A stretch of DNA of 47,487 nucleotides from Prolixibacteraceae bacterium. Lineage in GTDB: Bacteria; Bacteroidota; Bacteroidia; Bacteroidales; Prolixibacteraceae. Within the stretch, counting starts at the first letter, position 1. The number at the start of each line of letters is the position of its first letter. Under the pieces are notes generated by a model. The model saw nothing but the letters and a program-made list of their open reading frames with translations, ran no database searches and was not told the origin of the DNA. The DNA is taken from assembly GCA_025355875.1 (NCBI GenBank), contig JANXYV010000225.1, positions 1 to 47,487 on the forward strand, read 5' to 3'. This document shows, piece after piece, positions 7,945 through 42,421 of the stretch. The position numbers were made by a program, and so were the translations under genes.

Positions 7945-7954
7945 TTTTTTTTTT

Positions 7955-9694: not shown

Positions 9695-9745
9695 TATAAC
9701 GCTAATGCTAATCAATCACTTTTGTATTTGCTAATAAATAAAAAT

Positions 9746-12571: not shown

Positions 12572-12600
12572 GCAGGTAAAATAAATAAAACTAAAAAGTT

Positions 12601-16059: not shown

Positions 16060-16114
16060 TAGAAGGTGAATTAAAATGAAAAACAATATAATTAATCACT
16101 TAAATTTTAAAATT

Positions 16115-18040
16115 ATGAAAGCAAAATTTTTTACTTTATTGGGATGTTTATTTATGAGTTTATTTGCATTGGCACAGAAACAGATACCTGCTGGCCCAAT
16201 TGCAAATTTTGATGACATCATGCCAGGGGCAATGAGCAATTCATGGGATGAAATCAAAGATCCAGATGCTTTTGCAGTGGTTGATAATCCATTAATTGAT
16301 GCAACAAATGTCAGTGCAAAGTGCTTGAAAATCATGATAAAGGATACTTATAAGCCTTGGGGTGGTCCACCCGAATGGACTGCTCAGGTTATAAATTTCA
16401 AAGACTCTGCAACGATGTTAGTGGATAAAACCAGTACTACCCGCTATTTGCATGTTAAGTTTTTGGCGAATAAAGTTGGACAGAAATTGGGATTTAATTT
16501 AGTTCATGCATCAGGTCAAGCCGTGTCATTTACCTACATCGTTGGAGCACGCGATACCGCAAAATGGATAGAAGTAGTTTATGATCTCAATTTAGAACAA
16601 AATATGTACGATTGGTTTCTCTCATTTACGGTTAATCAAGACCTTGATTTTACCATAAATGGATTTAAGCAGGAAACAACTTATATTGATGAGATTGTAA
16701 TAAATGATGTTGCCACTTCTTCAAGTTCATCATTACCTGAAAAAGTTTTAGCTGATTTTCAGACTGTTTCCCCCGGATTAAGTGGCAATTGGGGTGAAAT
16801 TACAGATCCTGAAGCACTTACCATTATTGATAATCCGGTTAAAGACGGTATTAATGGAACTGCGAAATGCCTGAAGATTCTGCAAAAGGAATCTTATAAG
16901 CCATGGGGTAACGGTGACTGGTATGGTGCAGTTTTGGCTTTATCACCTGAATTACTTTTTGATAAAACAAATGGATCTCATTTTCTGCACTTCAAATATT
17001 ACAGCAATTCAGTAGGAACAAAAATGAACTTCGAAGTTTTGCAGTCAAGTGGTGTATTGTATGATTATCCTTTAACTGTAAGTGAAGCCGGGAAATGGGT
17101 CGAGGTGGTTATCAATTTGAATGTTCCTGAATTTGAAGTCACAACTATTAAGGAGATCGTATTTAATCCGAACCAGACCTATCAGGCTGATGGTCATACT
17201 GCTGACGAAATCACTTATTTAGACGAGATTGTAATTAATGATATTGCTACCACAGCTACACCTGAACCATCGACAAGGATTTTAGTTGACTACGAAACGT
17301 TTACTCCTTTAATGTCGGGAAACTGGGGTGCAATCACAGATTCTGAGGCTTTGACAGTTGTTGATAATCCATCGAAGGAAGCTGTTAATGAAAGTGCAAA
17401 ATGCTTAAAAATCCTGCAAAAGGCAAGTTATCAACCTTGGGGTAATGGAGATTGGTATGGTGCTGTCTTGGACATACCTAAGATTGATTTTGATAAAACC
17501 AAGGCATCACATTACCTGCACTTTAAATATCTAAGCTTTATCCTTGATACGAAGATTAATTTTGAAATCCTGCAAAATGGTAATACAAAATATGATTACC
17601 CAATGACAGTTAGCTCTGCTGGAAAATGGGTTGATGTTGTGATAGACCTAAATGTTCCAGAATTTACCCTCACGTCTATCTTTGAGTTTTTCTTTAGTCC
17701 AAACCAAACGTATCAAACTGATGGCCACACTGCTGACGAAATTACATATCTTGACGATATTCTAATTAACGATGTGCCGACTGTTATTACTTCTGTATCT
17801 CCTTTATCAAATAATTCTTTGTCGATTTTTCCAAATCCGGCAAGCGAAATTTTGAATATTCGTGGTATTACCGAAGAAACTACAGCAAGTATTTATACTG
17901 TGAACGGGAAACTAATGCAAGCCAATAAACTGTTTAATAATAACAGCCAAATTAATATCAATAGCTTATCAAAGGGAATTTATGTTGTCAGGCTTCAAAC
18001 TGGCAAAAATACAGTGGTCGAGAAATTTGTAAAACAGTAG
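16115..18040 (+). CDS. T9SS-exported protein of three tandem carbohydrate-binding-like domains
   Basis: The ATG at 16115 is chosen because it opens directly into a signal peptide (MKAKFFTLLGCLFMSLFALA); an ATG 39 bp upstream adds 13 residues. After it come three copies of the same ~165-residue unit (DNA about 16199-16711, 16751-17245, 17282-17776) and a C-terminal type IX sorting domain (LSIFPNPASEILNIRG ... GIYVVRLQTGKNTVVEKFVK). Units share NWGEITD.EAL, KCLKILQK.SY.PWGNGDWY, YLHFKY, GKWVEVVI and HTADEITYLDEIVIND; the first is most divergent. The end pattern 'YLDEIVIND' is typical of jelly-roll carbohydrate-binding modules. The same unit is attached to an esterase and a barrel enzyme in this locus, so this protein is probably a multivalent surface glycan binder. 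No catalytic domain is visible. Confidence 0.8.
   Translation: MKAKFFTLLGCLFMSLFALAQKQIPAGPIANFDDIMPGAMSNSWDEIKDPDAFAVVDNPLIDATNVSAKCLKIMIKDTYKPWGGPPEWTAQVINFKDSATMLVDKTSTTRYLHVKFLANKVGQKLGFNLVHASGQAVSFTYIVGARDTAKWIEVVYDLNLEQNMYDWFLSFTVNQDLDFTINGFKQETTYIDEIVINDVATSSSSSLPEKVLADFQTVSPGLSGNWGEITDPEALTIIDNPVKDGINGTAKCLKILQKESYKPWGNGDWYGAVLALSPELLFDKTNGSHFLHFKYYSNSVGTKMNFEVLQSSGVLYDYPLTVSEAGKWVEVVINLNVPEFEVTTIKEIVFNPNQTYQADGHTADEITYLDEIVINDIATTATPEPSTRILVDYETFTPLMSGNWGAITDSEALTVVDNPSKEAVNESAKCLKILQKASYQPWGNGDWYGAVLDIPKIDFDKTKASHYLHFKYLSFILDTKINFEILQNGNTKYDYPMTVSSAGKWVDVVIDLNVPEFTLTSIFEFFFSPNQTYQTDGHTADEITYLDDILINDVPTVITSVSPLSNNSLSIFPNPASEILNIRGITEETTASIYTVNGKLMQANKLFNNNSQININSLSKGIYVVRLQTGKNTVVEKFVKQ
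16199..17776 (+). repeat. three in-gene copies of the ~165-residue domain
   Basis: Copies 1-3 code for PWGGPPEW, PWGNGDWY and PWGNGDWY versions of the core motif. Copies 2 and 3 are much more alike, also at the DNA level (for example both have AACCAGAC/AACCAAAC-type NPNQTYQ codons followed by the HTADEIT block), which suggests a later duplication of one unit. Confidence 0.8.
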
Positions 18041-18105
18041 TTCGATGATTTATCAAATAATAGAATAAAGCAAAGTTTGATTTGGAAGTAATAGTGAATG
18101 TTCTG

Positions 18106-18136
18106 GTAGTCAGCAGTCTTTAAGATTGTTGACTAC
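18106..18136. terminator. hairpin after the triple-domain gene
   Basis: GTAGTCAGCAGTCT (18106-18119) pairs with AGATTGTTGACTAC (18123-18136), two G:U pairs, 3-nt loop, then CTTCTTACTC. A plausible weak terminator or mRNA-stability hairpin. Confidence 0.55.
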
Positions 18137-18236
18137 CTTCTTACTCATTTATTAAAATCAAAATAAAATTGAAAAGGCAATGTACTTTACCCATTATTCT
18201 TACACGTACAATGTTCAATTTAACCATCATATAAAA

Positions 18237-19691
18237 ATGAAAAAATATAAATTCAAATCTGGTATAGTCTTGATTGGCCTTCTAACATTGTCTATGATAG
18301 CGTCTTTGGTAGGTTGCAAAGACACTGAAACTCTTGCAAACTTTGATAAAAAAATCATCCAGTTCAAATTTGAGAAATCAAAAAATCCTGTATTGGCGGA
18401 AGACTCTATCATGGGTATTGTTGATGAAGTGAATCACACCGTTACGTTAACGATTGATCAGTTGGGGGTAGATATTACTCACATGATCGCAAATTTTGAA
18501 GTTTCCGATTTGGTTTCTATTGCGATAGGGAAAAAATCGCAGGAAGATGGGATTACTGCAAATGATTTCTCCGGATCAGTTGTATATACTCTTACAGCAG
18601 TAGATGGTTCTACCCTGGATTATTCAGTCTTAGTAAAAGTTCCAAAATACAACGGAAGCAAACTCGAGAAAATTTCATTTAAAAGTTCATTCAATACTAA
18701 TTTGGAAGGTGATATTAAAGGTGTTATTGATGAAACAACCCATACTGTAAATTTCACAATGCCATTCGGAACAAATATCAATGCGTTAAAAGCCAGCTTC
18801 ACTTCTTCAATAAAATCTACAGTAAGTATTGGTGGCGTATTACAAGTGAGTGATGTTACAATTAATGACTTTTTGGTACCCAAAATATATTCGGTAAAAT
18901 CGGAAGATGGAAACAATACACAAGATTATACAATTACAGTAGTTGTTGAGAATATCATGAGTTATAAAATCACATCACTAACCGAAGCCAATGCTTTTAA
19001 CCCAGTTAACGGGTCAGTAAGAAATTTAACATTAACAGGTTTTGGAATAAATGATGCCGTAATAAAAATGATAGCCTCTAAACAATTCAATATACTTGGC
19101 ACACTTCTGATTGATGGAACAAAAATTACAAGCACCAAGGGTCTTATTGATGTCATCGAATGTAAAGGAAGTATCATATTCAGAAATAACGCTTTACTTG
19201 TTGATCCTGAAGGGTTTGCTAAATATTCTAAGATTGAAGGCGATTTAATTATAGAAGGTAATTCGAAATTTCAGCTTTGGAATCCGGGTGGGTTAAACTT
19301 GATTGAACGGGTTGAAGGAACTGTCAGAATAGTAAGTCAGAATATATTATCGAATAGTCTGGCATCCTTAAATTATGTAGGTGGAGATTTTCATATTGAA
19401 GGTGGTGGTAAAATTATGCAGCTCTGGGATTTCAAAGGAATGCCAAACCTTGAATACATAGGAGGCAGTCTGATTTTAAAGAATAATTGGTTTCTGTATG
19501 ATTACGATGCACTTAAATCCATCAAATATATTGGTGAAAATATTAATATAACTGGTAATAATTCGGGTTATCCAGACAAAGGCGAAGCGCAAGTAGCTTT
19601 AGTTAAATATTTTAAAGATAATAATGTAATAAGCAGCTCTTGTGTTATAACCATTGCTTTATGGGATGGCACACCCGTGGTATATAGATAA
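18237..19691 (+). CDS. surface lipoprotein with DUF5018-like repeats
   Basis: The ATG at 18237 (MKKYKFKSGIVLIG) gives a lipoprotein leader ending SLVGC-KDTET; an earlier ATG at 18180 would bury it. About 484 residues. Two Ig-like DUF5018-type units follow, each ending with the characteristic strand 'Y.V.A.DG....Y.V.V': VYTLTAVDGSTLDYSVLVKV and KIYSVKSEDGNNTQDYTITV. The C-terminal ~220 residues are repetitive beta strands of the 'I.G.L.I.GN..L' type (IIEGNSKFQLWNPGGLNLIE, GGDFHIEGGGKIMQLWDFKG), reminiscent of receptor-L-like or right-handed parallel beta structures. Given its place in the PUL it is probably a surface glycan-binding protein (SusE/F role), by context rather than homology. Confidence 0.75.
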   Translation: MKKYKFKSGIVLIGLLTLSMIASLVGCKDTETLANFDKKIIQFKFEKSKNPVLAEDSIMGIVDEVNHTVTLTIDQLGVDITHMIANFEVSDLVSIAIGKKSQEDGITANDFSGSVVYTLTAVDGSTLDYSVLVKVPKYNGSKLEKISFKSSFNTNLEGDIKGVIDETTHTVNFTMPFGTNINALKASFTSSIKSTVSIGGVLQVSDVTINDFLVPKIYSVKSEDGNNTQDYTITVVVENIMSYKITSLTEANAFNPVNGSVRNLTLTGFGINDAVIKMIASKQFNILGTLLIDGTKITSTKGLIDVIECKGSIIFRNNALLVDPEGFAKYSKIEGDLIIEGNSKFQLWNPGGLNLIERVEGTVRIVSQNILSNSLASLNYVGGDFHIEGGGKIMQLWDFKGMPNLEYIGGSLILKNNWFLYDYDALKSIKYIGENINITGNNSGYPDKGEAQVALVKYFKDNNVISSSCVITIALWDGTPVVYR

Positions 19692-19729
19692 GTAAAAACT
19701 AATACAATATAGGTTGATTTAGAAGATAA

Positions 19730-19800
19730 ATATTCTTCAAAGGCAAGTCTTTCAGAACTATAAATTAGTAAGGAGAGACTTGTTTGCTGAAGAAAAATAT
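19730..19800. promoter_or_regulatory. interrupted inverted repeat before the GH95 gene
   Basis: CAAGTCT (19744-19750) pairs with AGACTTG (19776-19782), and TTCTTCA (19733-19739) with TGAAGAA (19788-19794), giving an imperfect stem-loop in the 160-bp gap. Could be a terminator or leader structure; weak. Confidence 0.35.
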
Positions 19801-19851
19801 TAGGAGTATAAAAAGTGATAATAATCCAAAAGTATTAAGAATTTTAAATAT

Positions 19852-22254
19852 ATGGATCTAAATATTATACGGCAGTCTTCAGTTTTTTTTATAATAATTT
19901 TGTTTGCAAACATATGCATGTCAGGCAATAAGGTGCAGCTAAAATCAACAGTGATGTGGATGGACAAACCGGCACAAGTTTGGAACGAAGCAACTCCGAT
20001 AGGTAATGGGCAATTGGGCGGAATGATCTATGGTGGCATAAAGTATGAAAGGATCAAAACAAACGATGATACATTTTGGTCAGGAGTACCAACTGATTTG
20101 CAGAAACCTCAGGTTGCTCAATACATCCCTTTTATTAGAAAACTAATATTTGAAGATAAAACGAAAGAAGCTCAATATTTAATAGATTCAAAAATTCTAG
20201 GTGTAAACAATGAATGTTATATGCCATTGGCTGATATATTATTAGAGATAAATGACAGTTTGCCAGTAACCAATTATCGACGTGAATTGGATTTAAATAA
20301 TGCTGTGGTGACAATCACGTATACTCAAAATGGGATTGATTTTAAAAGAGAAATATTTGCTTCTAACCCCGATCATGCAATAGTAATAAAGCTTTCTGCT
20401 GATAAATCCCATGCAGTTAATTTGAAAGCAAACTTAGTGAGTTCTGTTCGATATGAAACCAGAATTGAAGGTAATCAGTTCATTATTAACGGTAAAGCTC
20501 CAAGTCGCGCTTATCCCCATTATGAAGGGAAAAAGGAAGCTGTTTACGATGAACGAGGAGGAATGCGTTTTGAAGGGCGATTGATAGTGAAGCAGAATGG
20601 TGGGATTTTGAATAATAATAATCAGAGAATAGAGGTAAAGAATGCAAATTCAATTCAAATTGTGTTTGTTGAAGCTACAAGTTACAATGGATTTAATAAA
20701 AACCCTTTTACAGAAGGTAAAGATGAGAAAGAGTTATGCCTGAAAAAGGTAAATAAAATAATTTGCAAAGACTTTAACGAATTATATCAATCGCATGTAC
20801 AAGATTATTCAAGATTATTTAATCGTGTGAGTATTGATTTGGGAAATTCAGCAGAGTCAATACTTCCAATAAATAGACGGATAGTAAATTATAAAAAAGG
20901 AACAGATCCTTCACTCACAGCTTTATACTTCCAGTTTGGAAGATATTTGCTTATTTCATCGTCTCGACCAGGTACATTGCCTGCTAATTTGCAAGGAATT
21001 TGGAATGATGATATGCAACCTGCATGGAGTTCTAATTGGACAACAAATTGCAATCTAGAAATTAATTACTGGCCAGTTGAAGTGTCAAATCTGACAGAAT
21101 GCCATCTTCCATTGATTGAATTAACTCGTAATACAGCTGTTGATGGCGCTAAAACTGCAAAAAATCTTTATGGCGCCAGAGGTTGGATGGCTCATCATAA
21201 CCTCGATTTATGGCTTTCTACTTGGCCTGTTGGAGGTTCTGGTCAATGGGCAATTTATCAGGTTGGTGGTGCATGGTTGTGTCAACACATTTGGCAACAC
21301 TATTTATTTACAATGGATAAGCAGTTTCTCAAAGACAATTATGATTTACTGAAAGGAGCTTCGCTTTTCTTTATCGACGCTTTGCAAAAGGACAAAGCAG
21401 GCTTTTTGGTAACCAATCCTTCAGTTTCGTTCGAAAACACGTTCAAAAAGCCTAATGGAGAAACTGGTTGGGCCTGTATGGGGTCGGCACAAGATATGCA
21501 AATCGTGCGTGCGCTTTTTGAAAACACCATGAAAGCCGCAGATATGCTTAATGATTACGACTTTAAAGGAGAAATTAAGAAAATCTACGATAAGTTACCC
21601 CCTATTAAAATTAGTTTTACCACAGGGCAATTACAAGAATGGAACGATGACTGGGAGCCTGAAAATCCTTTCAATGGGATGTTGGCAAATGGCTGGGCAT
21701 TAGTAGAAAGTGAACTTATTTCTTTGCGAAAAACTCCCGAACTGGCAAATGCATTTCGCAAAACGATTGAATATCGGAGACCGAGTGATTATTATAATTG
21801 TGGAAGCTGGACTGGTGCTTTCCCTGCTAACTTTTGGGTGAGATTAGAGGAAGGTGATAATGCTCAGCAGGTTATAGAAAAACATTTTATGCAAGCGCTT
21901 GCCCCAAATTTAACATCCAATTTTAACGCTGGTGGAGTCAGAGATAACATGTCCTGGCAGATAGATGGAAATTTGGGGATAACAAGAGCAATTGCCGAAA
22001 TGTTACTGCAAAGCCAAGATGGTGAAATAAGTCTGCTACCTGCACTATCTACAAAATACCCAACAGGATTTGTAAAGGGGCTTCGGGCGCAAGGCGCATG
22101 CACTATTGACATAGAATGGAAAGATGGATTCTTGATAAAGGCATCTGTAACATCTGATTTTGGTGGAGAATTCACACTTCGGTATAAAGAAAAAACGCTC
22201 CAAATAAAACTTAAAGCAAAGGAAAAAATGACTGTAAACAGTAACCTGGTCTGA
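19852..22254 (+). CDS. GH95 family glycosidase (alpha-L-fucosidase / alpha-L-galactosidase type)
   Basis: Inverting glycosidase that removes terminal alpha-L-fucose (or L-galactose). 800 residues, the usual size, with a hydrophobic leader (SSVFFIIILFANICMS). N-terminal signature WNEATPIGNGQLGGMIYGG (44-62) and NDDTFWSG. Catalytic residues known from the bifidobacterial enzyme map to Asn399/Asn401 (TTNCNLEINYWP), Glu528 (NPSVSFENTF) and Asp705 (WQIDGN). C-terminal block LLPALSTKYPTGFVKGLRAQ. Odd: the His-rich loop HRHxSHL that follows LQEW..DWD in most GH95 enzymes is absent and replaced by PENPFNGMLANGWALVE (603-619). Substrate preference may therefore differ from classic fucosidases. Lies in the enzyme block between the DUF5018-like lipoprotein and the acetylesterase. 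Confidence 0.92.
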   Translation: MDLNIIRQSSVFFIIILFANICMSGNKVQLKSTVMWMDKPAQVWNEATPIGNGQLGGMIYGGIKYERIKTNDDTFWSGVPTDLQKPQVAQYIPFIRKLIFEDKTKEAQYLIDSKILGVNNECYMPLADILLEINDSLPVTNYRRELDLNNAVVTITYTQNGIDFKREIFASNPDHAIVIKLSADKSHAVNLKANLVSSVRYETRIEGNQFIINGKAPSRAYPHYEGKKEAVYDERGGMRFEGRLIVKQNGGILNNNNQRIEVKNANSIQIVFVEATSYNGFNKNPFTEGKDEKELCLKKVNKIICKDFNELYQSHVQDYSRLFNRVSIDLGNSAESILPINRRIVNYKKGTDPSLTALYFQFGRYLLISSSRPGTLPANLQGIWNDDMQPAWSSNWTTNCNLEINYWPVEVSNLTECHLPLIELTRNTAVDGAKTAKNLYGARGWMAHHNLDLWLSTWPVGGSGQWAIYQVGGAWLCQHIWQHYLFTMDKQFLKDNYDLLKGASLFFIDALQKDKAGFLVTNPSVSFENTFKKPNGETGWACMGSAQDMQIVRALFENTMKAADMLNDYDFKGEIKKIYDKLPPIKISFTTGQLQEWNDDWEPENPFNGMLANGWALVESELISLRKTPELANAFRKTIEYRRPSDYYNCGSWTGAFPANFWVRLEEGDNAQQVIEKHFMQALAPNLTSNFNAGGVRDNMSWQIDGNLGITRAIAEMLLQSQDGEISLLPALSTKYPTGFVKGLRAQGACTIDIEWKDGFLIKASVTSDFGGEFTLRYKEKTLQIKLKAKEKMTVNSNLV

Positions 22255-22311
22255 TTTTTAAATCGAATAATAATGATGTAAAGAGTACATAATAGTTTAA
22301 CCAGTAAATAA

Positions 22312-24534
22312 ATGAAGAACTCTATATCTTGCTTAGTGCTAATATTGATTCAATTTTTGAGTAACAGCCTTTATGCCAATATAAGCTTACCCAAATTTTT
22401 CTCGAATAACATGGTTTTACAACGTGATATGCCAATTCATGTGTTTGGAAATGCTACGGCAGGTGAAATGGTAAACGTAACTTTCAATGGTCAGACGGCA
22501 TCCGCAAAGGCAGAAAACTCCGGGAAATGGGAGATTACACTGCCAGCAATGGTTTTTGGTGGTCCATATACCCTGAATGCTCAAGGTTCAGCCAATAGCA
22601 TTAAATTGACCAATGTTCTTATTGGTGATGTATTTATTTGTTCCGGTCAATCAAATATGGAATTTCAATTGAATGCAGAAGCATCCGCAAATACAGAAAT
22701 TCCGGCTTCAGGAAATGACAATATAAGGTTGATTACGGTGCCGAAGAATTTCAATACGGTTGAACAAACTGATATTCCGCAAGCATCTTGGCTTGTCTGC
22801 AATCCAACATCTTCAGAAAACTTCTCAGCAGTGGCTTATTACTTTGGGAAAAATATCCAAACCAATCTGAAAATACCTGTTGGACTTATCAGTGCTGCCT
22901 GGTGGGCAACTTCTATCCGATCCTGGATGGCTTGGGATAACATTACAACTGTTGATGCTCATTACAAATCATATTCTGGAAAAACAATTGAACAGGCTTC
23001 CGGTAAAAACCAAGCTGATTATTTATTGGATGTTTCAGGATTTGCTCCAGCATGGCCTTCTATGGTTTATAATGGCATGATTAGTCCATTCACCAGGTTT
23101 CCGATTAAAGGAGCAATTTGGTATCAGGGTGAAGCCAATACCGGCGAAGCGAATATCTATAAAGACCTTTTTCAGGATATGATTGCCAGTTGGCGAAAAA
23201 AATGGGGATATGATTTTGGTTTCTTCTGGGTTCAACTTCCTGGATACGGTGTCGAAAGTTTAGTTCCTCAGGAAAGCCAATGGGCCGAACTTCGTGAAGC
23301 TCAAAATTCAGCACTATCGATTCTAAAAACCGGGCAGGCAGTGATAACTGATCTAGGCGATGCAACCAATCTTCATCCCACGAATAAGAAAGATGTTGGC
23401 TACCGTCTGGCGCAAGTTGTGTTAAAAGTGAACTATAATCAAGAAATATTGGGTTCAGGGCCAGTTTACCAGAGTTTAACAAAAATTGGAAGTGATCTTG
23501 TTCTTGATTTTTCAAACATTGGAACAGGGCTCTCATCTAAAAATAATGAGGATGTTTTATCGGGTTTTGAAATTTCTGGTAGCAATAAAGTTTTTTTTAT
23601 AGCTGCTGCTACAATCAACGGAAACAAGTTAACCGTCTCAAGTACCAATGTTGCTATTCCGGTTACCGTTCGATATGCATGGGCTGATAATCCTCGAAAA
23701 GCAAACCTGGTTAATAGTGATGGGTTGTTGGCATCTCCGTTTAGAACAGATAATGACCCACCTTTAATTAGCACAATTGCTAATTTTGAACAAATCACAC
23801 CTTCAATTTCTGCGAGCTGGGGCGAAATCAAAGATTCTTCGGCCTTAAACGTAGTTGATAATCCCTTTCCTGATGTTACTAACGGGAGTACAAAATGTTT
23901 AAAAGTATTGCAAAAGGTAAGCTATAAACCTTGGGGCAATGGAGATTGGTATTCATCTGTTTTGCAATTTCAAGAGGTGAAAATAGATAAAACAAGTGCA
24001 TATCATTATCTGCATTTTAAATACTTCTGTAACACGGCTACTGCTGAATTAAAAATCAGACTTGTGAAATCGAGTAGCGAAGTTTTTGAATATGTAATTA
24101 CAAATCCAACATTAGGGAAATGGGTAGAAGTTGTTGTTGACCTGAGTGTTGCTGCTTTTCAAATAAATACCTTTACTGTTATTGAGTTTTATCCCAACCA
24201 GCGGTATCAAACCAATCGACATACAGCCGACGAAATCTCTTATCTGGATGATGTTGAAATTAATGACAGTGCTGATAGTTCTACCGGAATTTCAACAAAT
24301 TCAGAAAACAACATTGTACTGTTTCCCAATCCGTCAAATTATATCCTGAATGTATCGGGTATTACAGAACCAACTATTGCCAGTATCTTCAATTCAAACG
24401 GAAAGCTGATGCGGGTAGAAAAACTGCTAAAATCAACCAGTCAAATCAATTTGGATGGATTGTCTTGCGGTTTATATATTATCAGATTGCAAGCGGGAAA
24501 AGATGCAATCGTTGAAAAATTTGTAAAGTTATAG
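22312..24534 (+). CDS. SGNH sialate-O-acetylesterase-like enzyme with glycan-binding-like domain and T9SS tail
   Basis: Secreted carbohydrate esterase, 740 residues. Signal peptide to about residue 22 (SLYA). N-terminal beta domain with the family opening LPKFFSNNMVLQRDMPIHVFG; catalytic Ser114 in VFICSGQSNM, AIWYQGEANT (268-277), and Asp350/His355 in DATNLHPTNKKDVGYRLA. This covers the usual ~480-residue family length. Residues about 490-652 (DNA 23779-24267) are a copy of the same domain found three times in the 16115 gene (KCLKVLQKVSYKPWGNGDWY, HTADEISYLDDVEIND). Residues about 665-740 form a T9SS sorting domain (VLFPNPSNYILNVSG, GLYIIRLQAGKDAIVEKFVK). Likely removes O-acetyl groups from the target glycan at the cell surface. 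Confidence 0.92.
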   Translation: MKNSISCLVLILIQFLSNSLYANISLPKFFSNNMVLQRDMPIHVFGNATAGEMVNVTFNGQTASAKAENSGKWEITLPAMVFGGPYTLNAQGSANSIKLTNVLIGDVFICSGQSNMEFQLNAEASANTEIPASGNDNIRLITVPKNFNTVEQTDIPQASWLVCNPTSSENFSAVAYYFGKNIQTNLKIPVGLISAAWWATSIRSWMAWDNITTVDAHYKSYSGKTIEQASGKNQADYLLDVSGFAPAWPSMVYNGMISPFTRFPIKGAIWYQGEANTGEANIYKDLFQDMIASWRKKWGYDFGFFWVQLPGYGVESLVPQESQWAELREAQNSALSILKTGQAVITDLGDATNLHPTNKKDVGYRLAQVVLKVNYNQEILGSGPVYQSLTKIGSDLVLDFSNIGTGLSSKNNEDVLSGFEISGSNKVFFIAAATINGNKLTVSSTNVAIPVTVRYAWADNPRKANLVNSDGLLASPFRTDNDPPLISTIANFEQITPSISASWGEIKDSSALNVVDNPFPDVTNGSTKCLKVLQKVSYKPWGNGDWYSSVLQFQEVKIDKTSAYHYLHFKYFCNTATAELKIRLVKSSSEVFEYVITNPTLGKWVEVVVDLSVAAFQINTFTVIEFYPNQRYQTNRHTADEISYLDDVEINDSADSSTGISTNSENNIVLFPNPSNYILNVSGITEPTIASIFNSNGKLMRVEKLLKSTSQINLDGLSCGLYIIRLQAGKDAIVEKFVKL

Positions 24535-24543
24535 TCCAAGAAA

Positions 24544-26073: not shown

Positions 26074-26080
26074 TTTTGCA

Positions 26081-28543
26081 ATGTATAAAAGACCATTTCT
26101 AATTTTGATTTTATTCTTGTCCTTTGGTGGCATTTTTGCGCAAAGCGAAACCCGTAAAACCATTCTATTGGATGAGAGATGGAAGTTTGCACTGGGTGAA
26201 AATTCCAATGCGGCTGAGACAAATCTGGACGATTCCGAATGGGAAACGGTGAGTGTTCCGCACGATTGGGCAATTCGTAAGCCTTTTGATTTAAATCAGG
26301 ATATGCAATGGGTGCTGGTAAAAGAAGATGGTGATAAGGAAGCTAAATTGAGAACCGGAAGAACCGGTGCATTGCCAATTTTTGGAGTTGCATGGTATCG
26401 AAAAATCCTTGAAATTCCTTCATTGGATAGTGGAAAATGTTTTTCTGTTGAATTTGATGGGGCCATGAGTCAGGCGAAGGTATATTGCAATGGGGAATTT
26501 GTTGGAGAGTGGCCTTATGGTTATACTTCATTTTCGTTTGATTTGACTAAGTATTTGAAAGTTGGCCAGAAGAATGTGCTTGCTGTCCGATTGGAAAATA
26601 AGCCGGAATCGTCACGTTGGTATTCGGGTGCCGGAATATACCGGAATGTCAGGTTAATAGCGACTAATCCTGTTCATGTGGCACATTGGGGTACCTATAT
26701 TACAACGCCCAATATCTCTGAAAAGAAAGGGACAGTTTCCATTCAAACAAAGGTTTTAAACCAATCTTCCGTTTCTGAAAAGGTGGAGCTTGTTACTGAC
26801 ATTTATAACCATATAGGCGAAAAAGTAGCCACAACTAAGACTTCTCAAATCATTGCTGTAGTTGGACAATTTAGTCAAACACTGGAGGTGAAAAATCCGG
26901 AATTGTGGGATATTAATTCGCCGGTAAGATACCGAGCCATTAGTCAGGTTTTTGTTGATAAAACACTGAAAGACACTTATGAAACTTCATTCGGATTTCG
27001 AATCCTTCGCTTTGATCAAGACAAAGGGTTTTATCTGAACGAGAAACACGTCAAGCTACAGGGTGTTTGTCTTCACCACGATTTGGGTCCGTTGGGGGCA
27101 GCAGTAAACTTCAGGGCAACACAACGTCAGCTTGAAATCATGAAAGAAATGGGCTGCAATGCCATTCGAACTTCACACAATCCACCTTCGCCTGAATTAC
27201 TCGAACTCTGCGACAGTATGGGTTTGGTAGTTATAGTGGAATCGTTTGACGAATGGAAAAACGGTAAAAATGTAAATGGCTACAATCGTTTTTTCAATGA
27301 ATGGGCTGAAAAAGATATGGTTGCTATGATCCATAGGGATAGAAATCATCCTTCAGTAATTATGTGGAGTATTGGGAACGAAATCAGGGAACAAGAGATG
27401 GCTGATGGAAAACTAAAAGCGAAGTTTTTGGTTAACATCTGTCATAGAGAAGACCCGACTCGCCCTACGACCGCAGGTTTCGACCGTCCCGATGGTGCTT
27501 TGAAAAACGGATTAGCTGATGTGGTTGATTTAGTAGGATTTAATTACAAACCATTTATTTACAAAAAAGTACATGCAGACCATCCGAATTATAAAATCTA
27601 TGGGAGTGAAACCGCTTCTACCTTGAGTTCCCGTGGAGTTTATAAGTTTCCAGCCAAAGAAAATAAAGGACCATGGTACGATGATTATCAAACGTCAAGC
27701 TATGATCTTGACTATGCGGGTTGGGCTTCTACTCCGGATACGGAATTTGAGATGCAAGACGAGTGCGATTTTTCGTTGGGAGAATTTGTGTGGACAGGAT
27801 TTGATTATCTGGGAGAACCAACGCCTTATAATGAAGGGACACCTGCCAAAAGCTCCTATTTTGGTATTGTTGACCTTGCAGGATTGAAGAAGGACCGCTT
27901 TTATCTCTATCAAAGTCGTTGGAGTACAACACCCGTTCTGCATTTGTTGCCACATTGGAATTGGGAAGGCAAAGAAGACGATACGATTCCTGTTTTTTGC
28001 TACACCAATTATCCGAAAGTGGAGCTGTTCGTTAACGGCAAAAGTATGGGGGTTAAATCCAAAAGAAATATCGGTAAATATGAAAAATACCGTTTGATGT
28101 GGACTAATGTAATTTATCAACCGGGAGAAATCAAAGCGGTCGCTTATGATGACAAAGGCAATGTGCAAAAAACAGAAATCATTAAAACCGCTGGCACTCC
28201 CGCAAGCATCAGGCTTACGGCCGACAGAGATACCATTGATGCAGATGGAAAGGACGTGTCGTTCGTGACAATAGAAATTATCGATAAAGATGGAAATCTT
28301 TGTCCCAATGCTCAACGATTATTGTTTTTTAAAACAGAAGGTGTTGGAACTTTAAAAGCACTTTGCAATGGCGATCCAACCGATTTGACTTCATTCTCCT
28401 CCAATTACATGAAGGCATTTAATGGAAAATTGATTGCGATTGTCAGTTCTACGAAATCAAGCGGAGAAATCAAATTAACAGTTTCCGGAGAAAGACTTTC
28501 AAATGCTGAAATTGTGGTACAGACAAATAATACATTAAGGTAG
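26081..28543 (+). CDS. GH2 beta-galactosidase with DUF4982-type C-terminus
   Basis: Retaining beta-galactosidase-type enzyme, 820 residues, beginning 7 bp after the previous stop. Signal peptide to about 20 (FGGIFAQ). Domains in order: GH2 sugar-binding domain (about 25-205; WAIRKPFDL, AWYRKILEIP), immunoglobulin-like domain (about 205-310), catalytic barrel (about 315-600) with LHHDLGPLGAAVN, RTSHNPPSPELLELCD, acid/base Glu434 in SIGNEIREQ and nucleophile Glu510 in KIYGSETAST. The barrel is followed by a DUF4982-like domain (about 630-700; CYTNYPKVELFVNGKSMG) and a C-terminal Ig-like domain (about 710-815; ASIRLTADRDTIDADGKDVS). The order and motifs match PUL beta-galactosidases that remove terminal beta-Gal. 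Other GH2 activities cannot be excluded. Confidence 0.94.
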   Translation: MYKRPFLILILFLSFGGIFAQSETRKTILLDERWKFALGENSNAAETNLDDSEWETVSVPHDWAIRKPFDLNQDMQWVLVKEDGDKEAKLRTGRTGALPIFGVAWYRKILEIPSLDSGKCFSVEFDGAMSQAKVYCNGEFVGEWPYGYTSFSFDLTKYLKVGQKNVLAVRLENKPESSRWYSGAGIYRNVRLIATNPVHVAHWGTYITTPNISEKKGTVSIQTKVLNQSSVSEKVELVTDIYNHIGEKVATTKTSQIIAVVGQFSQTLEVKNPELWDINSPVRYRAISQVFVDKTLKDTYETSFGFRILRFDQDKGFYLNEKHVKLQGVCLHHDLGPLGAAVNFRATQRQLEIMKEMGCNAIRTSHNPPSPELLELCDSMGLVVIVESFDEWKNGKNVNGYNRFFNEWAEKDMVAMIHRDRNHPSVIMWSIGNEIREQEMADGKLKAKFLVNICHREDPTRPTTAGFDRPDGALKNGLADVVDLVGFNYKPFIYKKVHADHPNYKIYGSETASTLSSRGVYKFPAKENKGPWYDDYQTSSYDLDYAGWASTPDTEFEMQDECDFSLGEFVWTGFDYLGEPTPYNEGTPAKSSYFGIVDLAGLKKDRFYLYQSRWSTTPVLHLLPHWNWEGKEDDTIPVFCYTNYPKVELFVNGKSMGVKSKRNIGKYEKYRLMWTNVIYQPGEIKAVAYDDKGNVQKTEIIKTAGTPASIRLTADRDTIDADGKDVSFVTIEIIDKDGNLCPNAQRLLFFKTEGVGTLKALCNGDPTDLTSFSSNYMKAFNGKLIAIVSSTKSSGEIKLTVSGERLSNAEIVVQTNNTLR

Positions 28544-28578
28544 TTGATTTATAATGAACTAGACTGTAATCCCATTAT

Positions 28579-29556
28579 ATGAGAACAAAAATAATTTTAG
28601 CCGTTATTGCAGAAATTTTCATTTCATCATTCTTGTATGGATGTCAGAAAAGTAACTCCTCAGTTGGAGATGATATAAATACTGACACTTTAAGTCCCAA
28701 TAGAGAAAATATAGATATTTACCTAATCGGTGGTCAGTCTAATGCAGTTGGCGTAGGTTACATGCAGAACATTGAAAATCCTCAAATAGTGACGCTGACT
28801 CAAGAGTTTCCACGGCCATTTAAAGCTGATCCCCGTGTCCAGATCTTTTACTTAAAAGGTTGGTATAGTCCGAGTTGGGGACCTTGGTCTTTTAATGGTC
28901 TTAATAACGGTAACCCTGAATTGACATGGATGCCGCTTGTGCATTGTGGACAAGATTCGATCACTTTTGGACCGGAATTGGGTTTTGGAAATAGGTTGAT
29001 GCAACTGAATTCGAAATTCAATATCGGCATAATAAAATATGCATCATCAGGATCAAGCCTTGAGGTTGATTGGAATCCTGGCGATAGCGTTTCCGACACA
29101 ACACATTGGGGGACTCAATTCAAATGGTTTGTCAAGGCAGTTGATAAAGGCATGGATGCTCTAAAAGAAAAAGGGAAGAATCCTGTTATTCGCGGAATGC
29201 TCTGGCAACAAGGTGAAGCTGACACTGGGTATGATAATTATGCCAACATGCTTGGTCATTTTATTGACAGAGTTCGTGAACAATGGGATGTTCCTAATAT
29301 GCGGTTTGTGTATGGCTATGTTTTTCCTGCAAATCCGTATAGCGAAATTAGATATGCAGAACGTGATGTGGATCAGAATTCTGGAACAAAATATGCAAAA
29401 AACAATGCATTTGTTGTTTGGACAGAGGATCTTCAATTGCGCAAAGATGATCCATGGTTTCCGGATCCAAATCTAAAAACTGATGCTGTTCATTTTGGTA
29501 CTGCCGGTCAACTCGAATTAGGAAGACGAATGGCAGATAAAATGCTACACAATTAA
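28579..29556 (+). CDS. SGNH carbohydrate esterase lipoprotein (CE6/DUF303-like)
   Basis: 325 residues; leader ends SSFLYGC-QKSN (lipobox). SGNH/SASA motifs: IDIYLIGGQSNAVGVGY with catalytic Ser54, GMLWQQGEADTG (block III), and Asp/His in TDAVHFGTAGQLELGRRM near the C-terminus. It is a compact single-domain version unlike the long esterase at 22312, so the locus carries two esterases of different architecture and different export route (lipoprotein here, T9SS there). Likely removes acetyl groups from sugars. Confidence 0.88.
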   Translation: MRTKIILAVIAEIFISSFLYGCQKSNSSVGDDINTDTLSPNRENIDIYLIGGQSNAVGVGYMQNIENPQIVTLTQEFPRPFKADPRVQIFYLKGWYSPSWGPWSFNGLNNGNPELTWMPLVHCGQDSITFGPELGFGNRLMQLNSKFNIGIIKYASSGSSLEVDWNPGDSVSDTTHWGTQFKWFVKAVDKGMDALKEKGKNPVIRGMLWQQGEADTGYDNYANMLGHFIDRVREQWDVPNMRFVYGYVFPANPYSEIRYAERDVDQNSGTKYAKNNAFVVWTEDLQLRKDDPWFPDPNLKTDAVHFGTAGQLELGRRMADKMLHN

Positions 29557-29684
29557 GGTAACTAAAATCCGGATTAAGTATTGAATGAAGATGCTGGTTC
29601 ACTAGTGGAAATCACTACTAATTCGGTGGCAGAAATATTGAAGCTAAAGCTGTAAATTAATCACTTACTTGAAATATTACTATT

Positions 29685-31190
29685 ATGAAGATCAATTCAT
29701 TTTTTTCTTTTTTCTTAAGTATTTTCTTTTTTTCGGTTTCCGTTGGGTGCAAAAAAAATAATCAACCAGTTGTTGATGATCCAAATACTGGATCTAAAAC
29801 TTTAATTATTTCTCCAGCCAGAGACAGCATTACGGTGCTTCACAATCCTTTGATGAGTTTGGTTAAATATGCAGGTGGGTACGCTGATGGAAATTGGGAT
29901 TTGGCTGAATGGACAACCAGTGATCCCAATATAGTAGCAGATTGTAACATTGTATACATCAGATCGCCCTGGGTGAATTTTGAGCCTACTGAAGGAAATT
30001 ATGTCTGGAAAAATAATGCAAGCTTCAAAAGTCTGATTGAAGGACTTAAAAGCAAAGGTTTTCGTTTGGCTTTTCGGGTTATGTGCCAGGATGACGGACT
30101 TGATCCCAAATTAGTTCGTGGAACTCCACCTTATGTAATTGATGCTATGAAGGCAGGTACTTATAATGTAATGTCGAAAAGTAATCCAAGATACCCGGAT
30201 GTTACCAATCCTATCTGGCAAGAAAAATTTAAAACATTCATACTGGCATTTGGCAAAGAATTTAATGATCCTGCAGTTACAGATTATATTGATGCCAATG
30301 GATTGGGTTTATGGGGAGAAGGTAATTTGGTTGGAATCCCGACTCCCAATGATAATCATGACCAGGAAAGAGCTTATTATGACTGGCATTTAGGTATTTA
30401 TGCACAAGCTTTTACAAAAGTCATTCTTGCTGTAAATCCATGCACTTTTGGATCATGGAGCAATAATGGAGCAGAACAGATAAAAACTGATTTAGACATT
30501 CCCATCGGCAAATATGGATGCGTATGGCGCAGAGATGGCATTGGACAGGATGTAAACAAGCCTTACATTCAACCAACTTCATCACAATTGGCTCCCTTTA
30601 ATTCAACTTTCCCAGCATGTCCAATTATATGTGAACCATGGTCGGGTTTTGCTTCGACCAATCGTGATTACATGAATCGTTTATTCAATGATGTAATTTT
30701 GCATCACGGAAATGCACTAAGCTATGATGCGGGGTGGGATGCAAATCCTGATCTGCTGGCTAAACTTATTACGAAGCTTGGTTATCGGTTACGTCCGGTA
30801 AAGATAGAACTACAGGATCAAGTCAAAAGTAGTGGTACTATGCAAATTAGTCATACCTGGACAAATGATGGTGTTGGTGCGTTACCAAATGGGAACATTC
30901 GTTGGAATAACAAATATGCCATAGCTTTTGCTCTGTTTAAATACTCTGAACATACTCCCACCAAGGTATATGTTGATAGCAAATCCAATCCCGGAGTTTT
31001 GGTAAATGGCTCAAACACGACCTATACAACCGATATACAATGGAATGTCCCGGCAGGAGACTATTGGCTGGCAGTAGGTATTATCGATCAAACCAAACCA
31101 ACAACTCCTTCTTTAGACCTTGCCATCAAAGCTCTCGGACGAAGAAACGGTTGGTATTTGCTTAAAACGATCACAATTGACGCTGATTAA
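29685..31190 (+). CDS. DUF4832-like barrel lipoprotein (putative glycoside hydrolase)
   Basis: Lipoprotein (leader ends FSVSVGC-KKNN), 501 residues. N-terminal barrel of GH42/GH-A style with the strand-and-substrate text YIRSPWVNFEPTEGNYVW, then GLWGEGNLVG with Glu212 as candidate acid/base and CPIICEPWSG with Glu317 as candidate nucleophile, both conserved in the paralogue 31739-33988. The C-terminal ~130 residues are a beta domain (LGYRLRPVKIELQDQVKSSG, SHTWTNDGVGALPNGNIRW) that matches the DUF4832 pattern. Activity unknown; GH-like by fold and residues. The paralogue has the same barrel with a different export route. Confidence 0.75.
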   Translation: MKINSFFSFFLSIFFFSVSVGCKKNNQPVVDDPNTGSKTLIISPARDSITVLHNPLMSLVKYAGGYADGNWDLAEWTTSDPNIVADCNIVYIRSPWVNFEPTEGNYVWKNNASFKSLIEGLKSKGFRLAFRVMCQDDGLDPKLVRGTPPYVIDAMKAGTYNVMSKSNPRYPDVTNPIWQEKFKTFILAFGKEFNDPAVTDYIDANGLGLWGEGNLVGIPTPNDNHDQERAYYDWHLGIYAQAFTKVILAVNPCTFGSWSNNGAEQIKTDLDIPIGKYGCVWRRDGIGQDVNKPYIQPTSSQLAPFNSTFPACPIICEPWSGFASTNRDYMNRLFNDVILHHGNALSYDAGWDANPDLLAKLITKLGYRLRPVKIELQDQVKSSGTMQISHTWTNDGVGALPNGNIRWNNKYAIAFALFKYSEHTPTKVYVDSKSNPGVLVNGSNTTYTTDIQWNVPAGDYWLAVGIIDQTKPTTPSLDLAIKALGRRNGWYLLKTITIDAD

Positions 31191-31258
31191 TATAAATATT
31201 TTCTTGACATTTTTAGGTTTTACTCTCATACAATAGTTCGTTCAAAAAACATTAAAAA

Positions 31259-31576
31259 TTAAGCGGACATCGAGCCGAAATACAATAGTTCATTGACATG
31301 TTGACGATTTTTGATTGAGTTCGGATTAATAACGAACAGGCGGAAAAATCGGCTAAAGAAGTCAAACCGATCGTCGAATTGGCGACGGAAGCGTTGTTCG
31401 CCAAAACGGCTGTATCGGCCCAACTGGAGAAAGTTAATCCGTGAAGAAAAACTCAGATATAGCATGAAAATCTCAATCATAAAATCTCGTCTGCATTTAT
31501 TGAGCTTAATTTTAGAAACAGATAAAGCATCAAGCACAATTTTTGAATAAACAACATAAATCGCAGAGGTGGCCAT
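31259..31576 (-). pseudogene. transposase N-terminal remnant
   Basis: The minus-strand translation has the opening of a common Bacteroidota DDE transposase: FMIEIFMLYLSFSSRINFLQ then LGRYSRFGEQRFRRQF and FDFFSRFF. It stops after about 105 residues, before any catalytic Asp; the usual following text (an AFDPSYI-type first Asp) is missing. Intact members exceed 350 residues. It sits between the two paralogous barrel genes, so it may mark the recombination that duplicated or rearranged them. A 12-bp repeat ATACAATAGTTC is found at about 31231 and inside the broken end at about 31282. Confidence 0.65.
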
Positions 31577-31738
31577 AATTAAAGTAATTAACTGGTAATT
31601 AATACTTTAAAGATACAAATCTCTGCGCTTTATACCTAACAAATAATCAGTTATTTTACTGCAAATCAGATAAATAACTAAATTTTAATCGAGGTATTGC
31701 TCTTATCCATTCAGTAAATATTAATAAATCTAATTCTT

Positions 31739-33988
31739 GTGAAAATCAACAAATTACTATTACTAATCGGATCGTTCTTAATCGGAACAATGTTGTCTGC
31801 ACAAACTGTTTCTGATTTTGAAACAGTATCGCCTGCAAATACCAGTGCAAATTGGGGCTTAATTACAGATGCCACGGCTGTGAGCATTGTGAACAATCCT
31901 CTAATTGATGCAGTTGATGGTACTGCAAAATGCTTAAAAACCTTACAGAAAAATTCTTTTGTCCCTTGGGGAAGCCAAAACTATTTTTGTGCAGTTCTTG
32001 CAATTCCATCAATTGCGGTCAATAAAGCAGGAACAAACCATTATTTACATGTTCGGTATTTATCTTACAAGTTGGGGCAAGTAATTAAATTCTCGTTGGT
32101 TTATGGATCTGCCAGCTCTATGGATTATAGTGTAACTGTAAGTACTAAAGGAGAATGGGTAGAAGCAGTTATTGATTTATCCACTTCTTCAACAACAATA
32201 ACCTCTTTTTCTGAATTTGCAATATACCCAAACACTAACTATACAGCAAATGGCAATACTGCTGATCAAACTACGTATTTTGACAATATTGTAATTAACA
32301 GTGTTGCAGCCTCTGGTACATCTGCTACCTTCAACCCTACCCCAAATACAACCACAGTACTGAAGAACCCATTAATGAATCTAGTACAATACCTAACGTC
32401 TGACTACAATGGAAATTGGAGCGATCCAACCTGGTACTTAAATGATGTAAATACATCAGCCAATTGTAACACCATATATTTAAGAGCTGCATGGATGTGC
32501 TTTGAGCCTACTGAAGGAAATTATGTGTGGAATAACAATCAAAGTTTCAAAAATCTAGTTGCAGCAGTTAAAGCGAAAGGTTGGCGTTTAGGATTTCGAG
32601 TAATGTGTCAGGACGATGGGTTGAGCGAAACTGCAGTGCACGGCACTCCTCAATACGTAATCGACGCTATGCGTGCAGCTGGTTATACCAATCCTTACGC
32701 TATTTATAATACCCGATACCCAGATGTTACCAACCCAGTTTGGCAGGCAAAATTCAAAAAATTTATCTTAGCATTTGGTGCAAAATTTAACGATCCAACC
32801 ATCACTGATTATGTAGATGCTAATGGTTTAGGTAAATGGGGTGAAGGCAATTTAGTGGGAATTGCTCCTTGGAATGGCGATCATACTGCAGAAAAGGCTT
32901 ATTACGATTGGCATTTAGGCGTTTATGCACAAGCATTTACAAAAGTAATTTTAAATGTAACTCCTTCAACATTTGGCACTTGGGATAATGATGGCTATGA
33001 TCAGCAACAAACAGACCTAACCTATGCTATTGGGAAATATGGTTGTATTTGGAGAAAAGATGGTATTGGAGAAGATCCAACTCTACCATACGTTACACGT
33101 TCTGCTGCTCAACTATATGAGTTTACACAATCATGGCCATCTTGTCCGATGCTTTGTGAACCATGGAATCCGGGTTTCGCATCAAACGATCGCTCGTACA
33201 TGAGTCGGATAATTCAGGACGTGCAGGTATTTCATGGAAATAACCTGACAAATAATTGGAACGGAGCATGGCTAACCACTGCTAACACTGACCTGTTAGC
33301 TCAACTAATAGCTACACTTGGCTACCGCTTGCGCCCAACAAAGGTTATTGTTTCAACACAAGGTGCTACTAGTACAATTAACCATACATGGACAAACGAT
33401 GGTTCGGGAGTATTGCCGAATGCAAACGTTCGTTGGGGTAAAAAATATCAAATATCGTATGCACTTATTTCAGGGTCAACAGTAAGCCAAGTATTCAGTG
33501 ATGTCAACGCCGACCCAGGAGTATTGGTAAAAGGAACAAACACGAGCTTCACAACCACCATTCCCTGGACCGTTGCTGCTGGAACCTATCAGTTGGCAGT
33601 AGGTGTTACAGATAAAACTATCGCATCTTTACCTTCGCTCGACCTTGCCCTTACGGGTACTCGTTTAAACGGATGGTATGTGTTGGGGAATATAATAATT
33701 AGTAATGTTTCCAAGCTACTACGTGCTGTTATGTCTAACAATAATCAGCAGTTATTTGAAGTGAAACTTTTCCCAAATCCTGTTAATAATCAATTAACGA
33801 TTAACGGTATGGAAGGAAAATTTGATCTTCAGATTACAAATATGAATGGAATAGTTTACAAAGCTGTAAAATCAGTGAATGGAGATCAAATAGTTGATGT
33901 TTCAAGAATTCCTGCAGGACTTTATAATGCCTCTCTAATCAGCGAGAATGGACGACACGTTAATAAAAAATTCATAATTATCAAATAG
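31739..33988 (+). CDS. DUF4832-like barrel enzyme with glycan-binding-like domain and T9SS tail
   Basis: GTG start at 31739 opens directly into the signal peptide (KINKLLLLIGSFLIGTMLSA), which decides it. 749 residues in order: one copy of the ~165-residue domain (about 25-189, DNA 31811-32305; KCLKTLQKNSFVPWGS, NTADQTTYFDNIVINS), barrel (about 205-535) very close to the protein at 29685 (AWMCFEPTEGNYVW; Glu in GKWGEGNLVG; Glu in CPMLCEPWNPG), DUF4832-like beta domain (SHTWTNDG-type text here NHTWTNDGSGVLPNANVRWG), and T9SS sorting domain (VKLFPNPVNNQLTINGMEG ... NKKFIIIK). Codon choice looks slightly different from the paralogue (more CCA/ACA, fewer GG repeats) but I did not quantify this. 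Ends at the PUL terminator. Confidence 0.8.
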   Translation: MKINKLLLLIGSFLIGTMLSAQTVSDFETVSPANTSANWGLITDATAVSIVNNPLIDAVDGTAKCLKTLQKNSFVPWGSQNYFCAVLAIPSIAVNKAGTNHYLHVRYLSYKLGQVIKFSLVYGSASSMDYSVTVSTKGEWVEAVIDLSTSSTTITSFSEFAIYPNTNYTANGNTADQTTYFDNIVINSVAASGTSATFNPTPNTTTVLKNPLMNLVQYLTSDYNGNWSDPTWYLNDVNTSANCNTIYLRAAWMCFEPTEGNYVWNNNQSFKNLVAAVKAKGWRLGFRVMCQDDGLSETAVHGTPQYVIDAMRAAGYTNPYAIYNTRYPDVTNPVWQAKFKKFILAFGAKFNDPTITDYVDANGLGKWGEGNLVGIAPWNGDHTAEKAYYDWHLGVYAQAFTKVILNVTPSTFGTWDNDGYDQQQTDLTYAIGKYGCIWRKDGIGEDPTLPYVTRSAAQLYEFTQSWPSCPMLCEPWNPGFASNDRSYMSRIIQDVQVFHGNNLTNNWNGAWLTTANTDLLAQLIATLGYRLRPTKVIVSTQGATSTINHTWTNDGSGVLPNANVRWGKKYQISYALISGSTVSQVFSDVNADPGVLVKGTNTSFTTTIPWTVAAGTYQLAVGVTDKTIASLPSLDLALTGTRLNGWYVLGNIIISNVSKLLRAVMSNNNQQLFEVKLFPNPVNNQLTINGMEGKFDLQITNMNGIVYKAVKSVNGDQIVDVSRIPAGLYNASLISENGRHVNKKFIIIK

Positions 33989-34131
33989 TCGTTCATAAAT
34001 AAAAAATAAGTACAACCACTGAGGCTCCATGGCTCAGGGTATTCTTCAACGTTTTCAATTCCATAATAAAATTAGTTCATGTACCGTACCTCTCACACCT
34101 AAAAAAACAGTATCACAAAAATTAAGTACAT

Positions 34132-34433: not shown

Positions 34434-35023
34434 CTTATTGTCGATAAATTGTGGGAGCAGATTTTTGAGTTGAGAAGTTTTAGTGTTGTCGAGTGAAGTT
34501 CTTTGTTTTAATTATTAGTGCCCTTTGTAAGGTGCAAACTGTTGGTTTTGAGAAGTTAGCAACTGCCTTTGACAGCAATGCCAGCACTAATTCCTCACTG
34601 CGGAGAATACAACGATTTATGGCGACATATCTTTTGGATACAGATTTGATTTCCAGATTGATATTCAAACTATTACCACATAAACCTCCTTTCCGCTTAG
34701 CAATGGACAGGACAAACTGGAAGTTTGGACAGCAAAATGTCAATGTATTGGTGCTCGCAGTTGTTTATCACGGAGTTGCTTTCCCGTTGCTGATTAAGTT
34801 GTTACCCAAATTTGGCAATTCAAACACCGATGAACGCATTGAATTGGTTGAACGGTTCATCCGCCTTTTTGGTTCAGAAGCATTGGATTGTTTGACCGCA
34901 GATCGTGAGTTTGTTGGAGAACGATGGATCAAATACTTGAATGAGAACCGAATTCGGTATTATATCCGCATTCGCATTGAAAAGAAAAAACAACAAAAGA
35001 GTAATCCTAAGGAGAGTGAGTAG
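34434..35023 (+). pseudogene. IS4-family transposase, frameshifted and truncated
   Basis: Translation shows the IS4-type core: FRLAMDRTNWKFGQQNVNVL with the first catalytic Asp, PLLIKLLPKFGNSNTDERIE, and LTADREFVGERWIKYLNENR with the second Asp. The third acidic residue and the C-terminal third are missing; the frame ends SNPKESE* at 35023. At the 5' end, residues LWEQIFELRSFSVVE are in another frame (34449-34493) and join the main frame only by a shift near 34493, so the gene is broken twice. No intact terminal inverted repeats seen. Confidence 0.8.
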
Positions 35024-39986: not shown

Positions 39987-40005
39987 TTTATCCTTGGTTT
40001 ATTTA

Positions 40006-40145
40006 TTTGTTTATTTATTTATTTTTGAATCCTGAAAATAACGCAACAAACACATAATGAGCAGTTTGTTGTATTTTATTTTTGATTCTGTCTTTGATTT
40101 ATTTTTTTTTGATGTTGCTTTTCATTTGCTTTTCATTTGCTTTTT
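40006..40145. repeat. low-complexity spacer with 11-bp tandem units
   Basis: TTTA-type runs (about 40006-40024), then TTGCTTTTCA-type 11-bp units repeated between 40115 and 40145. Read on the minus strand the unit (GCAAATGAAAAG) equals the last codons of the upstream AlbA gene, so it looks like slippage duplication of that gene's 3' end. Confidence 0.6.
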
Positions 40146-40202
40146 AAGATAACATGTGTATATCGTTGATATTATGCGAGTTGTATCCATTTGTATCGAA
40201 AA

Positions 40203-41861: not shown

Positions 41862-41910
41862 TGTAAATATCTTTAAATGTTATATTGTAATCATGTATCG
41901 TTTGTGATTG

Positions 41911-42408: not shown

Positions 42409-42421
42409 TCATCAATTGAGG

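Follow-up and report, generated by a model that had tools for sequence, protein, structure and literature searches.

The locus and its five domain copies

The window, i.e., the whole 47,487-nucleotide stretch analysed here, corresponds to contig C160 of a 5.18 Mb Prolixibacteraceae genome (230 contigs, 97.93% complete) and carries a PUL encoding a sigma factor, FecR, two SusC/SusD pairs, a GH31 enzyme, a protein with three copies of the domain considered in this study (hereafter the triple-domain protein), a protein with a weak match to DUF6242, a GH95 enzyme, a SASA-type esterase bearing a further copy, a protein with a weak match to DUF4978, a GH2 enzyme, a second SASA protein and two barrel proteins with weak matches to DUF4832, one of which bears the fifth copy (Table 1). 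The GH31 enzyme closely matches structures of alpha-galactosidases (8J50, E 9.5e-165), the weak-DUF4978 protein weakly resembles beta-galactosidase structures (best E 2.5e-06), and the two SASA proteins resemble each other only weakly (31% identity over 81 residues). Pfam models for GH16, GH17 and GH3 found no match among the 14 main proteins of the PUL. This set of enzymes suggests that their target is an O-acetylated glycan built with galactose and fucose (or L-galactose), its probable constituents being alpha- and beta-galactose, fucose or L-galactose, and O-acetyl groups. Outside the domain, the two barrel proteins share 55-59% identity; the paralogue lacking it has no solved relative by sequence, and the barrel family, whose similarity to DUF4832 is weak, has a match in 5 of 101 related genomes at E <= 1e-20. 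Elsewhere in the window, a 176-residue ORF at 34493-35023 resembles, by eye, a transposase fragment, and the minus strand at 36872-46268 is a likely defence island encoding MmeI-type restriction-modification, TIR, AlbA_2/HATPase_c_4, DEAD-type helicase and T5orf172 proteins.

Table 1. Coordinates of the features discussed in the text (positions in the window unless a contig is named)
Feature	Position	Strand	Remark
Two SusC/SusD-type pairs	4546..14292	+	
Triple-domain protein gene	16076..18040	+	no catalytic domain by Pfam; start at 16076 or at 16115, the second ATG of the ORF opening at 16076, either being possible
Domain copy d1, triple-domain protein	16193..16729	+	most divergent copy
Domain copy d2, triple-domain protein	16742..17266	+	copy used for modelling
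Domain copy d3, triple-domain protein	17276..17800	+	
T9SS type A sorting tail, triple-domain protein	17825..18031	+	PF18962 / TIGR04183
SASA-type (PF03629) esterase	22312..24534	+	one C-terminal domain copy and T9SS tail
Domain copy in SASA-type esterase	23770..24288	+	near C-terminus
T9SS type A sorting tail, esterase	24319..24525	+	
Barrel protein paralogue	29685..31190	+	probable lipoprotein; without domain, without T9SS tail match
Barrel protein	31739..33988	+	N-terminal domain copy and T9SS tail; weak PF16116/DUF4832 match, below cut-off
Domain copy in barrel protein	31802..32314	+	N-terminal
T9SS type A sorting tail, barrel protein	33767..33979	+	
Locus L087 (another genome)	G001:C239:4500-24000		

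The preliminary description of this DNA had proposed that one unnamed domain recurs five times in the PUL, and sequence comparison indeed recovers five homologous copies of ~170 residues each, distributed over three proteins. The other four are 66, 50, 46 and 40% identical to d2, the lowest value being that of d1. A search of the organism's own genome with d2 alone, taken up to E 10, returned five matches, all of them in the window (E 3.8e-36 to 2.7e-115), which is far beyond chance; the profile of the five copies, at E <= 1e-3, returned the same five and no others. No copy has an internal stop. The five copies share 28 invariant alignment columns, including P51-W52-G53 and W116, and four positions (P32, W55, W119 and D161 in the numbering of the wider alignment A5) are invariant in all 56 rows of that alignment. 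The short motifs that had been listed as common to the copies are present in most but are not universal: d1 lacks several, reading NSWDEIKD and AKWIEVV and having no TADE, while variants are also seen in the esterase copy (SWGEIKD), in d3 (GKWVDVV) and in the barrel copy (GEWVEAV and TADQ).

The three carriers all end in a T9SS sorting tail, for which Por_Secre_tail scores 57.3, 42.0 and 41.9 bits against a Pfam cut-off of 27, with TIGR04183 likewise above its cut-off; a scan of 18 further window proteins gave no match to Por_Secre_tail at E <= 0.01. When the window profile was run against the 14 PUL proteins, it found the domain in these three carriers, the best of the remaining 11 reaching E 0.098. 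Within the PUL the domain is thus confined to proteins with a T9SS tail (3 of 14), as had been suggested. The companion observation that the lipoprotein enzymes lack it also stands, with lipoproteins called by eye and by a simple pattern, but it draws the line too narrowly, as the GH31, GH95 and GH2 enzymes, which have no clear lipobox, are likewise without the domain. The carriers also drew a few weak Pfam matches (SDH_protease, Cluap1, DUF1907, RM6_Med14 and others), all of them below cut-off, which were set aside as chance.

Sequence and fold relationships to carbohydrate-binding modules

The domain does lack a family name, in that no Pfam or NCBIfam model scores above cut-off on any copy. 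This includes CBM_4_9 (PF02018), which is not above its Pfam cut-off on the window copies. A search of PHROGs with the triple-domain protein, the sole carrier scanned there, gave no match, and 30 members of the A2 alignment scanned singly against Pfam gave weak, scattered matches, the best being PLipase_C_C at E 0.00028 in two members. No match to a named non-carbohydrate domain, of the kind that would speak against a carbohydrate-binding role, was found by sequence. In the collection of papers searched, none dealt with this domain family; one describes domains to which laminarin binding was assigned from their homology to BfSGBP-B (PMC11345257).

Used alone, the profile of the five window copies (A1) gave no convincing match among solved structures, the one match obtained being a sperm protein at E 1.3. 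With relatives added, a profile of 30 rows (A2) matches the PDB entry 8QX6 at E 1.7e-10, and one of 56 rows (A5; the five copies plus 51 of the 72 listed domains, the rest having been omitted by eye as near-duplicates or short) does so at E 5.3e-13. A profile of seven domains from laminarin-type loci (A6) matches the same structure at 6.3e-15. Further, hhalign joins A1 to A6, which share no rows, at 97.2% (E 3e-11), as against 13.3% (E 0.0021) for the sole control, a CBM30-like profile (A7), which it leaves unlinked. Sequence homology to 8QX6 is hence reached through profiles that include relatives and through the profile-profile link to the laminarin branch, and not by the five copies alone. 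Weak matches of the A2 search included the CBM 1GUI (E 0.02) and outer surface protein B (E 0.025 and 0.067).

The entry 8QX6 bears the title 'PKD domain-containing protein', and we take it to be CBM102, the laminarin-binding module of an SGBP from Christiangramia forsetii, which reportedly goes back to Zuhlke et al. in 2024. The window copies have in common with it an NP..SGIN motif and a terminal Y-D-DI. In contrast, their PWG..W stretch is absent from the aligned 8QX6 sequence; moreover, their carriers have a T9SS tail and no laminarinase family matched in the window locus. The likeness to CBM4/CBM_4_9 (PF02018; 1GUI, the laminarinase 16A module) consists of fold matches and the weak 1GUI profile match; L071, one of the relatives, attains the PF02018 cut-off when scored as a whole protein, while no single stretch of it passes. 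For CBM30 (PF21582), CBM29, CBM61 and CBM11 the likeness lies in fold matches.

With an alignment of nothing but the five window copies, AlphaFold gave a poor model (pLDDT 54.3), which was excluded from the fold search, whereas the AlphaFold2 model of d2 with the 56-row alignment attained pLDDT 86.1 and pTM 0.83. The latter is all beta, with 11 strands and no helix of at least 4 residues. Foldseek against the PDB returned 109 matches to the d2 model at E <= 0.001, and the 50 that were listed have TMq values of 0.35-0.66. Counted from their titles, these 50 comprise 28 CBMs (CBM4, 8, 11, 22, 29, 30, 61 and the engineered CBM4-2), 13 agarases, the aligned part of which is unspecified, one mannanase with its CBM, and eight that are non-sugar by title (three MAM-domain proteins, three FlaA1, one iota toxin pore and one 'EP'). 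The best match is an exo-beta-agarase (E 5.4e-07), and 8QX6 is absent among the 50 listed. The kind of beta fold that the preliminary description had named as support is thus predicted for d2, which appears CBM-like in its modelled architecture. The PWGNGDWY segment (model residues 54-61), which had been pictured as a possible exposed aromatic patch, is modelled at lower confidence as a loop between two strands, with a mean pLDDT of 64 for residues 51-60.

Relatives, their genomic contexts and their phylogeny

Profile searches show the relatives to constitute a Pfam-less set of domains in Bacteroidota and Balneolota. With the five-copy profile, and in each case with the own genome included, matches were obtained in 12 of 61 genomes (E <= 1e-3), 5 of 140 genomes of the family (1e-6), 7 of 395 of the phylum (1e-6) and 12 of 393 of the order (1e-8), these four sets overlapping one another. 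A scan of genome contigs with the profile of same-genus relatives (A4) gave 120 pattern matches, of which 38 were confirmed, in 37 loci, with two titled Balneolales; when the window profile was used in the same kind of search, 54 pattern matches resulted, and not one was confirmed as a relative. Viral contigs yielded 257 pattern matches, none of which was confirmed as a relative, and a plasmid search with the triple-domain protein yielded no match.

The domain occurs in one chain with carbohydrate-active enzymes, namely the SASA esterase in the window and GH16, GH29 and GH30 enzymes among the relatives. Nine relatives that were scanned include proteins combining it with PKD (L007 and L017), with GH30 (L020) and with CBM30-like domains that alternate with it (L024); the T9SS tail is above cut-off in L007, L010 and L023 and below it in L009, L013 and L024. 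Ten further long relatives have a T9SS tail in eight cases, and six of the ten contain CBM20, CBM48 or X25 above cut-off. This combination with starch-type modules is seen in L044 (the sequence of which ends at the locus edge), L048, L050, L052, L062 and L068, all from uncultured Bacteroidota. The domain also stands in front of GH29 in L096 and in front of GH16 in L100.

The gene neighborhoods, in which Pfam scans covered selected genes of L084-L088, L090, L102 and L103, repeatedly place domain proteins beside glycanases. In L084 the order is SusC, SusD, the domain protein, a PKD protein and two GH16 genes; L085 has SusC- and SusD-length genes, the domain protein, GH16 and GH3; and L086, the locus of the L017 gene, couples the domain protein to two GH16 genes. 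L087 comprises a row of GH3, PF10091, a two-domain protein, the T9SS tail of which is on the same gene as L007, and again PF10091, and is, going by PF10091, possibly a beta-1,2-glucan locus. In L088 we found SusD, SusC, an 874-residue four-copy protein, a GH30 with an N-terminal domain, GH2 and another GH30, and in L090 a GH30 with a ricin-type lectin, a three-copy protein and SusC. L102, the locus of L091, comprises GH130, a sodium symporter, the L091 protein, SusC and SusD, and L103 resembles it by eye. Both SusC and SusD were confirmed by Pfam in L084, L088 and L102, and SusC only in L090; those of L085 and L086 are guesses from length and order.

For the phylogeny we used trees of 64 and 68 chosen rows, both of which raised a long-branch warning that in the 68-row tree extends to d1. 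In the 68-row IQ-TREE, the five window copies form one clade (bootstrap 99, SH-aLRT 98), which is joined at 98/97 by L091 and L092. These, from two genomes of the same order, are the nearest sequences found, at 27-36% identity to the window copies, and differ from the window arrangement in that their proteins have a single copy behind another N-terminal region. The window copies did not group with the domains of laminarin loci, 13 of which are parted from them by a branch of 100/99, while ungrouped rows may fall on either side of it. The branches next to the window clade are weak (79/45 and 34/73), and a 27-row set holding that clade has 95/83. The structure 8QX6, present in the 64-row tree alone, has a long branch there and is placed next to the laminarin type (SH-aLRT 89). 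As the window copies are one clade and stand apart from the laminarin branch, we conclude that they multiplied in this lineage and are not just modules of the laminarin type. Such copying within a locus is no general rule, since in the 64-row tree neither the five L088 copies nor the three L090 copies form a single clade; hence, we dropped the notion that each PUL has its private set of modules.

A predicted glycan-binding role and the alternatives

Taking these lines together, we propose that the domain is most probably a beta-sandwich CBM. It would occupy a separate branch of a large set of unnamed domains, in which it is the laminarin-type branch that matches 8QX6. The reading as a CBM is well supported because homology, fold and context concur, ligand binding itself being a prediction from sequence and model. 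The earlier suggestion of a module of carbohydrate-binding type thus finds backing in the homology to 8QX6 via intermediates, in the CBM-like predicted fold and in relatives fused to or beside glycanases. The suggestion that it is a new CBM family fares less evenly: the copies do stand apart from the laminarin-type domains, but this is a matter of degree, and they are a divergent clade of a wider set with a solved member.

Briefly, the architecture of the carriers is consistent with the following mechanism. The T9SS would place the three carriers on the cell surface or outside. There, the single copies might keep the esterase and the barrel enzyme attached to their glycan target, whereas the triple-copy protein could bind the same glycan with higher avidity and keep it near the SusC/SusD uptake pairs. 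The ligand would then be the glycan of this locus and not laminarin. A more far-reaching version, which we advance tentatively and regard as somewhat less probable than its negation, is that the five copies together with L091 and L092 make up a separate CBM family whose ligand is new to CBMs (here an acetylated galactose/fucose glycan). One module would then have spread by copying to each of the T9SS-tailed proteins in the locus, with the result that the triple binder, which lacks a catalytic domain, and the two enzymes might grip the same polymer.

The distribution of the domain could also be read through the tail itself: if it served T9SS cargo as a spacer or for attachment to the surface, by protein-protein or envelope binding, and bound no glycan, then the shared tail and not the substrate would explain where it occurs. 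This is in line with its being found in the window solely with a T9SS tail, with the tail in eight of the 10 long relatives, and with a fold common to MAM domains and FlaA1. We nonetheless consider it unlikely, given that T9SS cargo attaches by its own tail, that the copies track glycan loci and glycanases, and that no T9SS tail matched in L017 (PKD-type, 693 residues; E <= 0.1) or in L071 (E <= 0.01). L091 also has no tail at E <= 0.001, yet its end resembles a short tail by eye, and L096, scanned without its last residues, is uninformative on this point.

If, instead, the profile homology to 8QX6 is taken at face value, the copies might be plain members of that laminarin-binding family (presumably CBM102) and bind beta-1,3-glucan. 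We hold this to be improbable, in view of the 100/99 branch between the window clade (supported 99/98, and joined at 98/97 by L091 and L092) and the domains of laminarin loci, and of a locus in which none of the 14 main proteins matched a GH16, GH17 or GH3 model and which has an alpha-galactosidase-type GH31, GH95, GH2 and SASA esterases. Least probable of all, and in our estimate quite remote, is that we are dealing with duplicates that have partly decayed or are purely structural, and of which only some bind: the divergence of d1, with its low identity to d2 and several missing motifs, would fit such a course, but the copies are free of stops, their 28 columns are invariant in all five, and P32, W55, W119 and D161 persist in 56 of 56 rows.

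The reading as a CBM with its own branch would add to Bacteroidota a Pfam-less set of domains with one solved member, which would aid the annotation of surface glycan-binding proteins and of T9SS proteins currently designated 'hypothetical'. For this locus it raises the question of whether the glycan bound by the triple-domain protein and by the enzyme-borne copies matches the galactose, fucose and acetyl chemistry suggested by the enzymes.
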